From contig CAIJOY010000021.1 in the NCBI GenBank assembly GCA_903822425.1, positions 1-55,257 of the forward strand: a stretch of 55,257 bases of DNA, read 5' to 3'. Under the pieces are notes generated by a model, which was not told the origin of the DNA, searched no databases, and was given only the letters and a program-made list of their open reading frames with translations. Below are positions 15,540 to 19,671 of the stretch, in pieces (positions within the stretch are counted from its first letter, which is position 1; every line of letters begins with the position of its first letter). The translations under genes were made by a program, and so were the position numbers. Source of the stretch: an uncultured Actinomycetes bacterium. GTDB lineage: Bacteria > Actinomycetota > Actinomycetes > Nanopelagicales > Nanopelagicaceae.

Positions 15540-16670
15540 TTAACGATGAATCCCAGCTTTTCGTAGATCTGAGATACGCAACGTTCCAGTTTTGGCGTCA
15601 TCTTCAGAGGCTAAATACAGACGTTGAATCGCAATTACCAGTGATTCAGCAATAACGTCGCGAAAATCCGGTCTACCTAAGCGTTGAGCATCACCAGGGT
15701 TTGTTAGATAGCCAAGATCAATCCGAACCGTGGGGGCTACTGTTAAACGTAACAAGTCCCAAGTTTTTGCGTGAGTCCGCAAATTCAGCAGATCGGTTCG
15801 AGCACAAATTTCACGTTGAACTAATGAAGCAAATCGCTCACCGACTACCGAATGAACTCCATGAGCTTGGCTTCCATAAAAATATGTTGCTACTCCATGA
15901 GCACTTTCATTGGGATAACGGTCAGCATGAAAAGAAAGCATAAGATCTGCCCCAGTTTCATTTGAAAAAACAATTCTTTCACTTTCTGTAGGGCGATTAC
16001 CCACACCTCTGGTTAGAAACACACTGACACCTAAAGCCAATAGGCGGCCTTCAAGCCTTTGTGCAACATCGTAAACAATTTCTGATTCCTGAACACCGTT
16101 GGAGTTAATGCCAGAATTTGCACCACCGCTAGGATCTAAAACTATAACTTTATTAGCAAGTGCAGGACCGCGATTTTTACGCGCAGCACTTTCTCGAAGA
16201 ATCGATGGTGCACCACCAGAGATTGTGTGTGTTAAGCGAATCAGGGCAGTAATTGTCGCTGGTCCACACCTACCATCAACTGCTACACCCGCAGATTTTT
16301 GAAATTCTCGAACACAACTTTCTGTCCGAGGTCCAAAGACACCATCAACACGGCCACAATCAAAGCCCATATCAATAAAACGCGACTGCAACATCGCTAC
16401 ATCATCCCCCCGCATTAAAGGAGCTGCTTGAAGGTAAAGAGAACGATCTCCTAATTTCCACCGCGATTCTTCTAAGGCACGATAGGTCACAGAATTAACT
16501 ATTCCATTTACGGTGAGCCCTCTAGATTGTTGAAACGCACGGATGGCATCCACAACCTCAGCAGTAATTTCTAACGGTTGAGAATTTAATAACCCTAACC
16601 GGTTGAGAATATTTATGACATGCGTTACAACATCTCCGCTAGAGCCTTTACTTAAAGAAAGATCTTCCAT
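15540..16670 (-). CDS. cwlM: CwlM-like N-acetylmuramoyl-L-alanine amidase homologue, probably inactive regulator
   Basis: This 376-residue protein has two peptidoglycan-binding-1 domains (about 7-70 and 85-143) and an Amidase_3 domain (about 174-352). It has no signal peptide or membrane segment, so it should be cytoplasmic. The zinc site is degenerate. DPGHGG of active amidases reads DPSGG (179-183) with the zinc His replaced by Gly182, while Glu195 and His248 remain. The catalytic Glu of the ELGFLTN motif is Asp318 (RIDLGYLTN). Gene order matches M. tuberculosis trxC-cwlM. CwlM there is a cytoplasmic, phosphorylation-controlled activator of MurA that also contacts MurJ. The C-terminal tail (354-376) carries T361 and T363 as possible kinase targets. 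The regulatory role is inferred. Confidence 0.85.
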   Translation of the reverse strand: MEDLSLSKGSSGDVVTHVINILNRLGLLNSQPLEITAEVVDAIRAFQQSRGLTVNGIVNSVTYRALEESRWKLGDRSLYLQAAPLMRGDDVAMLQSRFIDMGFDCGRVDGVFGPRTESCVREFQKSAGVAVDGRCGPATITALIRLTHTISGGAPSILRESAARKNRGPALANKVIVLDPSGGANSGINSNGVQESEIVYDVAQRLEGRLLALGVSVFLTRGVGNRPTESERIVFSNETGADLMLSFHADRYPNESAHGVATYFYGSQAHGVHSVVGERFASLVQREICARTDLLNLRTHAKTWDLLRLTVAPTVRIDLGYLTNPGDAQRLGRPDFRDVIAESLVIAIQRLYLASEDDAKTGTLRISDLRKAGIHR

Positions 16671-16691: not shown

Positions 16692-17015
16692 TTAGATGAA
16701 TGAATCCAACTCTTTTAGCAAGGCAGGTTTCGGCTTAGCTCCGATAATTGTTTTAACTACTTGGCCATTAACAAAGACATTAAGTGTTGGAATCGATGTG
16801 ATCCCGTACTTAATTGCAATGGCAGACTCTTCATCGGTGTTAAGTTTCACAATTTTCAACTTATCGCCATGTTCTTTTGCGATCTCATCCAAAATTGGAG
16901 CAACAGCACGGCAAGGTCCACACCATTCAGCCCAAAAATCTACCAAAACCGGAATACTGCTTTTTAAAACCATTTCATCAAAAGTTGATGTCGTTACAGG
17001 CTGTGGTGCGCTCAT
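16692..17015 (-). CDS. trxA: thioredoxin
   Basis: This 107-residue protein is a classical thioredoxin with the active-site motif W-C-G-P-C (C32, C35), the cis-proline segment ITSIPTLNVF and the buried Asp in VDFWAEWC. It reduces protein disulfides using electrons from TrxB. AAGGAAG is placed well before the ATG. It lies 44 bases after trxB in the same direction, giving a trxB-trxA-cwlM order shared with mycobacteria. Confidence 0.97.
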   Translation of the reverse strand: MSAPQPVTTSTFDEMVLKSSIPVLVDFWAEWCGPCRAVAPILDEIAKEHGDKLKIVKLNTDEESAIAIKYGITSIPTLNVFVNGQVVKTIIGAKPKPALLKELDSFI

Positions 17016-17059: not shown

Positions 17060-17989
17060 CTAGTGATGCGATAGGAAACGCTCGGCATCTAAGGCGGCTT
17101 GGCACCCAGAGCCTGCGGCAGTTATTGCTTGGCGGTAGCTATGGTCAACCAAGTCACCACAAGCAAAAACACCTATGAGATTAGTGTTGGTAGTTCGACC
17201 GATAACTTCAACATAACCTTCACCATCCAAAGTTATTTGCCCTTTAATTAATTCACTACGGGGATTGTGGCCGATTGCAACGAATAACCCAGTGAAGTCC
17301 TTCGTCAAAACTTCACTAGTGATTGTATTTCGAAGCTGCAAACCCACAACTTTCTCTTCACCTAAAACATCTATAACTTCATGATTCCATAAAAACTCAA
17401 TTTTCGGATTAGCAAAAGCTCGTTCAGCCATAATTTTTGAAGCACGTAATGAATCACGGCGATGAATTAAAACCACTTTACTTGCAAAACGAGTAAGGAA
17501 TGTTGCCTCTTCAATTGCCGAGTCTCCACCACCAACGACAGCAATGACCTGGTCTCTGAAGAAAAATCCGTCACATGTTGCACACCAAGAAACTCCACGT
17601 CCAGATAGTCGTTTCTCGTTGACCAGCCCAATCTCTTTAAAAGCAGAACCCATAGCCAAAATTACTGACTTGGCATGCACGGTATTACCCGATCCATCTT
17701 TTAATACCTTCACATCACCTGATAAGTCCATCTCCACAATGTCATCTGTAATGAGATTTGTGCCGAAACGCTCTGCTTGCTTGCGCATTGAATCCATCAA
17801 ATCTGGACCCATTACTCCATCTGTAAAACCAGGAAAGTTTTCAACCTCAGTGGTATTCATAAGAGCCCCACCAGCAGTGACTGATCCTTCATAAAGAATT
17901 GGTGAAAGCTGGGCACGAGCGGCATAAATAGCAGCGGTATATCCAGCAGGTCCTGAACCTACAATTACAACATCGTTTACTTTTGTCAT
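17060..17989 (-). CDS. trxB: thioredoxin-disulfide reductase
   Basis: This 309-residue FAD/NADPH flavoprotein reduces thioredoxin. It shows the FAD-binding [10 protein letters not shown] (11-20), the redox-active C-A-T-C (C136, C139), the NADPH-binding [10 protein letters not shown] (153-162) with HRRDSLRAS downstream, and the C-terminal FAD motif [23 protein letters not shown]. Length is typical of the low-molecular-weight type. It lies 20 bases after murJ. TATGGT six bases before the ATG may be a -10 of its own, but it overlaps a weak ribosome-binding site. Confidence 0.97.
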
Positions 17990-18009: not shown

Positions 18010-19671
18010 CTAAAGGCCTTTATTCCTGCGCGCTCTGACTGCAGCTGTGATTCGGGTTAACTGATTCCTCACTAACCTATCTGTGATGGCAATCTCTTCC
18101 ACGGCCATATACCGGGCAATTAAGAAATAAAGAATCGGACTCAACACCATCACCAACATTAACTCGCCTAAACGCGTAACTGTAGGCGAGGTTTTAGTTA
18201 CCCAAGAGAAGTATGACGAAAGTGCATACAGCGGCAACATCGCCACAAGGGAGGCGAGGATTAACCGAAGGTGTTGACCCATAAAATCTCGCAAATGGAT
18301 AGGTCCGGTATGACGAGAAAGTAAATGTAATGTAAAAACCAACCCAAGAATATAACTCACAGAAAAAGCAACACCCAACCCAATTGTTATCCAGTGAGTT
18401 TTTAAACTAAACAAAAACAAATAAGAAAGACCAACAGAAATTACATTTATTAATAGGATGGAAAGTACTTGAGTCCTAGTATCTTCAAAAGCATTAAACC
18501 CGCGAATGAGAATCAAATTAATACTGAATGCGACTAACCCAATTCCTAACGCTGATAAAACATACCCAAGATATGTTGCGTCTTCTTGAGGAATTCCAAG
18601 ATAGAGAACATTTGTTATCAAAGGTCCAAAAAGCAGGAATCCCACTCCGCTAGGAATCGTGATAACACCAACCATTTTGATCGCTTTAATTAATTGCTCT
18701 CTAACATCCTTAACTTTATTCTCGAGCGCCAACTTGGAAAGTTGAGGAAGCAGTGCAGTCACTATAGAGATAGTTACAATGGAATAAGGCAACATCATGA
18801 TTAGGTAAGCATTACTAAATGGCGTGTAACCCACGCCAGTAACAACACCTTCCTTAGCGCTACGAACAGCCGCAGTCGTTGAAACATTAACTGTGACCAA
18901 ATACCCCAGTTGCGAAATGAGTACATACACTAAGGTCCAGGCAGCTAAAGAAAATGATTTGCCAAGCCCTTTTAAGCCAAGTCGTACTCGTAGATGTATA
19001 CCTGTCCTTTTTACAACAGGGATCAAAATAAGTGACTGAATAACGACGCCAATGGTGGTTCCGATACCGAGAATCTGCACTTGTTGGCTAGTTATTGTCA
19101 TTAAAGATAGCGTTGGAGATGAAATTAAAAGCACAGAAAAAAGAGCGATGATAAAGATGTTATTGATAATAGGGGCCCACATTAAAGGCGCAAACGAGCC
19201 GCGGGCGTTTGCAACTTGTCCTAACATCATAAAAAGCCCAAAGAAGAATACTTGAGGTAGACAATACCGAGTAAAAGCAACAGCCAAATTGAGTTCGGTT
19301 TCAAAGCCTGGGCTACCAAACTCCGGTGCGTAAATTTTTAGGAGTGCTGGAGCAAAAATAATGCCTAAAACTACGATTACTAGAAGTAACAGACTGATTG
19401 TTGTTACTAAGCGAGATACAAAACCTTCACCACCATCTTCTTCGGTAGACGAGCGAATTATCTGCGGAACAAAAATTGCAGTTAAAGCGCCCCCAATAAG
19501 CAAGTTGTAAATAATGTTAGGCATAGTGTTTGCGACGTTAAAAGTGTCCGCCAAAAGTGCGGTTCCAAGAAGAGCGACGGTAAGCACCATCCGGACAAAG
19601 CCTGTTAACCGAGAAAGTATCGTGCCAACTGCCATAACACTAGATGCGTGGAAAAGATCAGCTGGCTTCAT
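18010..19671 (-). CDS. murJ: lipid II flippase MurJ (MviN)
   Basis: This 553-residue polytopic protein has about 14 membrane segments and the MviN/MurJ family start [21 protein letters not shown]. MurJ moves lipid II across the inner membrane for wall synthesis. The M. tuberculosis orthologue in the same position (Rv3910) has an extra cytoplasmic pseudokinase and an outer carbohydrate-binding domain. This protein ends after the membrane core, with only a short basic tail. It overlaps the DUF6049 gene by 4 bases. Its proximity to the cwlM-like gene is the conserved mycobacterial arrangement. Confidence 0.93.

Follow-up and report, generated by a model that had tools for sequence, protein, structure and literature searches.

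A CwlM orthologue of Nanopelagicaceae with a decayed amidase site, a constrained phospho-tail and altered predicted contacts to MurA

The CwlM orthologue encoded at 15540..16670 (minus strand, ATG start, 376 aa) of the window, by which we mean the whole analyzed stretch of 55,257 nucleotides, is best read as a non-catalytic cytosolic regulator that would be phosphorylated by PknB and whose docking on MurA has been lost or remade (probability about 0.6). As far as aligned sequences can tell, its family no longer has the published contacts with MurA, MurJ and FhaA, yet the C-terminal tail has been frozen, and this combination is new. The loss of zinc ligands together with a kept phospho-tail is the known part; Boutte and colleagues already reported that leaders are absent from actinobacterial CwlM proteins and that conservation of the tail motif does not depend on the zinc ligands (PMC4946905). 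A literature search on wall regulation in Nanopelagicales or on a CwlM 'pseudoenzyme' found nothing direct.

The sequence features identify the gene as a cwlM orthologue from an acI-type actinobacterium of the Nanopelagicaceae. The first-pass annotation had delimited it at the same coordinates, and we place it on the minus strand, as with all features below. Its product shows the domain order of CwlM, namely two PG_binding_1 stretches, of which the first is a PG_binding_1-like domain with an approximate boundary (residues about 5–70, 16461..16658; Pfam) and the second spans residues 87–143 (16242..16412; Pfam), followed by a degenerate Amidase_3 domain (residues 176–349, 15624..16145; Pfam and predicted structure). 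The gene tree placed the protein within CwlM, in a clade with the sister genus g107 (support 97). For the locus comparison, the mycobacterial cwlM gene order was used. Upstream of cwlM on the same strand lie trxA (16692..17015), trxB (17060..17989) and murJ (18010..19671), and on the other side an aminotransferase gene is followed by parB, parA and gid, as recognised from their sequences; the gene thus adjoins both trxA-trxB-murJ and parAB-gid. The annotation had put murJ two genes away, which holds in the sense that two genes, trxA and trxB, intervene. A sigM/anti-sigma pair stands between murJ and trxB in mycobacteria and is absent from this position in the window. In domain order, cytosolic character and neighbourhood, the protein resembles mycobacterial CwlM (Rv3915 / MSMEG_6935). 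No hydrophobic segment was found in the first 60 residues (maximum Kyte-Doolittle mean of 0.82 over 19 residues), and the open frame of 378 codons extends only two beyond the gene, leaving no room for an upstream leader, in agreement with the annotated lack of a signal peptide. The genome is indeed reduced (1.43 Mb, 98% complete), cwlM is its sole Amidase_3 gene, and cwlM was found in 100 of 101 genomes of the order, including all 89 of the 89 high-quality ones.

To describe the zinc site, we used an alignment of 159 usable CwlM proteins, in which the family counts (n = 111) leave out genus g107. The former first zinc ligand site, DPGHGG, is represented by DPSGG (residues 179–183, 16122..16136), so that the window protein reads VIVLDPS-GG against VVIDPGHGG in zinc-intact proteins; its nearest relative (83%) has DPSCGG. 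The first zinc His had been described as replaced by Gly182; its absence stands, whereas the alignment shows that one residue is deleted (DPS-GG), in place of the described substitution. Glu195 (16086..16088) and His248 (15927..15929), the second and third zinc ligands according to the alignment, are retained, a point on which the annotation was silent. The alignment also agrees that Asp318 (15717..15719) occupies the position of the catalytic Glu, although this is weak evidence of inactivity alone. Asp occurs there in 17 of 46 actinobacterial CwlM proteins from other families, 10 of which have all three zinc ligands; the change from Glu to Asp was therefore rejected as proof of inactivity. 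Set against the three zinc ligands and catalytic Glu of an active Amidase_3, the window protein accordingly has its first ligand deleted and Asp in place of Glu.

Within the family, the first His is missing in 111 of 111 proteins, the second ligand in 48 and the third in 29, and in Planktophila-like relatives the loop from the first to the second ligand is deleted. All three ligands (HEH) and the Glu are intact in the sister genus g107 (L182, L183), and the zinc site is intact in 37 of 46 proteins of other families. A tree built without the zinc-site columns shows at least four changes of state for the first His (in the window family, the mycobacterial family f4 and others), and its loss, as read from the sequences, is repeated across the tree. 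If the intact state is ancestral, as its frequency in the class suggests, the loss in this family appears to postdate the split from g107. The within-genus pN/pS of the zinc loop was 0.31. Judged from these sequences, the zinc site has been lost across the family and very probably the amidase activity with it. Each of 61 genomes of the order carries exactly one Amidase_3 gene, and outside g107, where the CwlM site is intact, this lineage seems to retain no canonical Amidase_3 enzyme. The implied contrast between this protein and mycobacterial CwlM was wrong, since mycobacterial CwlM lacks zinc residues too (PMC4946905); the best-studied member of the family is already known to be inactive, and this state is no speciality of reduced genomes. 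Both proteins lack the first zinc His, have Asp for the catalytic Glu and carry a TGT tail aligned at T382/T374, whereas at the third ligand position mycobacteria have Arg and the window protein has His, and the zinc-site losses are independent on the tree.

The fold was described as intact, and the predicted structures bear this out, also for a protein whose zinc loop is deleted. The window protein (pLDDT 73) and a loop-deleted relative (L051; pLDDT 72) were modelled with AlphaFold2; both models, of modest confidence and with tails below 50, match Rv3717, 4rn7 and CwlV at a Foldseek TM score of about 0.8, the range to active Amidase_3 structures being about 0.73–0.86 (all by target length). 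The amidase body is under purifying selection (within-genus pN/pS 0.18), and the models indicate that it has been kept while the active site decayed. The active Amidase_3 enzymes Rv3717/Ami1 and CwlV share this fold and differ in being exported, in having the zinc site and in having no PG_binding pair plus phospho-tail. In genus g2 (Planktophila-like; L100–L114 and other loci), CwlM is about 330–343 aa long, approximately the first 40 residues, much of the first PG_binding domain, being gone in addition to the zinc loop. In residues 287–310 (15741–15812), E287, R291, T292, H300, W304, L307, R308 and T310 are conserved in all families, in zinc-intact and zinc-lost proteins alike; from its conservation, this signature may mark a protein-binding surface.

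The C-terminal phospho-tail, DAKTGTLRISDLRKAG (residues 358–373, 15552..15599), contains both threonines to which attention had been drawn: T361 aligns with T374 of M. smegmatis and T382 of M. tuberculosis, and T363 with T384, while the position of T386 is R365. Loss of the T382/T374 site cripples the growth of M. smegmatis (PMC4946905). The PTG/TGT motif of CwlM is present as T361-G362-T363, with T361 found in 111 of 111 relatives and TGT in 110. D358, A359, T361, G362, D368, L369 and G373 are invariant in the 111 family sequences and variable or gapped in other families; the mean column entropy of the tail is 0.30 bits in the family versus 2.28 in other families, and its within-genus pN/pS (0.14) is the lowest in the protein. 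A constraint at the DNA or RNA level was rejected because the invariant residues are written with many synonymous codons, including all four Thr and all four Gly codons. These sequence patterns indicate that the tail is under strong constraint at the protein level.

We also examined the partners of CwlM in the genome. A PknB-like kinase and a MurA partner are both there: the genome encodes two PASTA kinases, a PP2C phosphatase and one MurA. The kinase on contig 38 has M. tuberculosis PknB (1mru) as its best PDB match (E = 1e-95) and contains VAVK, HRD and DFG motifs, and the PknB-like kinase gene directly follows that of the phosphatase (L203:2258-4587). In mycobacteria, rodA, pbpA and pknA stand between the PP2C and pknB genes, and they are absent here. 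PASTA domains were found in 61 of 61 genomes of the order. The MurA is the only one above the cut-off in the genome and has the Asp of LPGGD, as in mycobacterial sequences.

The same cannot be said of the MurJ and FhaA partners. The window MurJ (553 aa) ends 25 residues past the flippase domain, so that both the pseudokinase and the linker to which unphosphorylated CwlM binds in M. tuberculosis are missing. FhaA, which reads phospho-CwlM in mycobacteria, seems to be absent among 91 genomes of the order, since 89 have exactly one FHA match of approximately GarA size; of the other two genomes, one has no match and one has two, both on short contigs. The only FHA protein of the window genome matches GarA best (L204:6979-7584), with an N-terminal switch DLTATVHLG (DLTTTLHLG in a same-genus relative, L271); these switch segments resemble TGTLRI of the CwlM tail.

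A 2025 study described salt bridges between CwlM E178/E179 and MurA R346/R355 that were predicted by AlphaFold and tested with mutants; in mycobacteria, charge removal abolished the stimulation in vitro and had mild effects in vivo (PMC12723410). The equivalent of REEEL in the window protein is RESAA (residues 159–163, 16182..16196), in which S161 and A162 take the positions of M. tuberculosis E178 and E179, and the genome's own MurA has N346 and R355; the acidic helix facing R346 and R355 of a MurA-activating CwlM was thus not found. We compared paired CwlM and MurA proteins from 63 genomes. MurA position 346 is basic in 4 of 35 family members versus 26 of 27 outside the family, position 355 in 8 of 35 versus 27 of 27, and CwlM 161 or 162 is acidic in 5 of 35 versus 21 of 27; position 162 is acidic in none of the 111 family members. 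Genus g107 keeps K346 and R355 in MurA together with D162 in CwlM. Six of 214 MurA columns that are conserved outside the family are lost inside it, including R346, R355 and V353 between them, and the chance of both named residues falling among 6 of 214 is 0.0007. A general relaxation of MurA was rejected as the cause, given that 208 of the 214 columns are kept and 14 of 16 basic ones are retained at 94–100%. Position 355 is Ser or Asn in three distinct non-actinobacterial MurA structures (3r38, 6q0a and 3sg1), so this arginine is not a general requirement of MurA. No charge swap was seen by eye in the MurA segment. These comparisons indicate that the charged contact is lost on both sides in the family, which is the new part of the interface result; the loss is suggestive rather than conclusive because it is one event on one branch and not many independent tests. 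Compared with mycobacterial CwlM, the window protein therefore differs in having RESAA for REEEL and in being without a T386 equivalent, FhaA and the MurJ linker. Zinc-intact CwlM proteins (most of the class and g107) are orthologous, mostly have a TG tail and share the H300/W304 signature; they differ in their intact DPGHGG, Glu and His, in a commonly acidic position 162 and in a MurA that keeps R346 and R355.

The strongest competitor of a non-catalytic regulator with altered docking is that CwlM works exactly as in mycobacteria, where docking of the phosphorylated protein on MurA raises the activity of MurA about 30-fold, and that the missing charges do no more than shift the affinity. Conservation extends to CwlM, PknB, PP2C and an Asp-type MurA as well as to MurA D348 (35/35) and H350 (34/35), which the published model places in contact with the backbone of CwlM (PMC12723410). 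However, the loss of acid at CwlM 162 in every family member and of basic residues at MurA 346 and 355 in most, together with the abolished in vitro stimulation of the charge mutants, makes this reading possible but doubtful.

The other two alternatives fare worse. A zinc amidase that remains active, with E195, H248 and a replacement ligand, could draw on the persistence of these two residues in the window protein, which leaves weak metal binding possible, on Cys at the lost His position in 13 of 19 same-genus proteins and on an activity claimed for M. tuberculosis CwlM despite its missing ligands (as cited in PMC4946905). The candidate Cys, frequent in the genus, was nevertheless rejected as a general ligand, the position being empty in the window and elsewhere taken by Trp, Gly, Leu or Arg or removed by a gap or deletion of the whole loop, and the protein is without a leader to reach its substrate, so that we consider activity highly improbable. 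Slightly less remote, yet still improbable, is a protein outside kinase control that has been retained, on account of its PG_binding domains and pseudo-active groove, as a structural element or a sensor of peptidoglycan precursors. The kept PG_binding_1 domains and the constrained amidase body would fit such a role, but no segment is more constrained than the tail, in which T361 and G362 are invariant, and PASTA kinases occur throughout the order.

As a phosphorylated non-catalytic regulator, CwlM would keep the Amidase_3 fold, bind no catalytic zinc and cut no peptidoglycan. A PknB-like kinase would phosphorylate T361 and perhaps also T363, and the state of the tail would switch CwlM between partners and so tune precursor synthesis. 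Given the paired disappearance of acids in CwlM and arginines in MurA, the apparent absence of FhaA and the missing MurJ linker, this switch would no longer work via the contacts known from mycobacteria, and the proposal of a regulatory role retained by way of MurA and MurJ finds no support in the form given. Either the contacts that remain, with D348 and H350 conserved, would still hold MurA, or a different partner would read the tail. That the switch has moved off MurA to a new tail-reading partner, with GarA as one candidate, is an unlikely variant; if true, it would couple wall synthesis directly with the metabolism of 2-oxoglutarate and glutamate. EnvC of E. coli has a LytM fold, is periplasmic and activates hydrolases rather than precursor synthesis. 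It is alike in being a peptidoglycan hydrolase homologue without catalytic residues that has become a regulator, of AmiA/AmiB (as cited in PMC4946905).

The family may thus present a regulator caught in steps, from the intact site in g107 through the single-ligand loss in the window to the whole-loop deletion in Planktophila-like relatives, while the tail stays frozen at every step. That acids in CwlM and arginines in MurA disappeared jointly offers an independent evolutionary hint in favour of a real interface in mycobacteria. It also leads one to expect that the MurA of these abundant freshwater bacteria would be either unregulated by CwlM or regulated via another contact.
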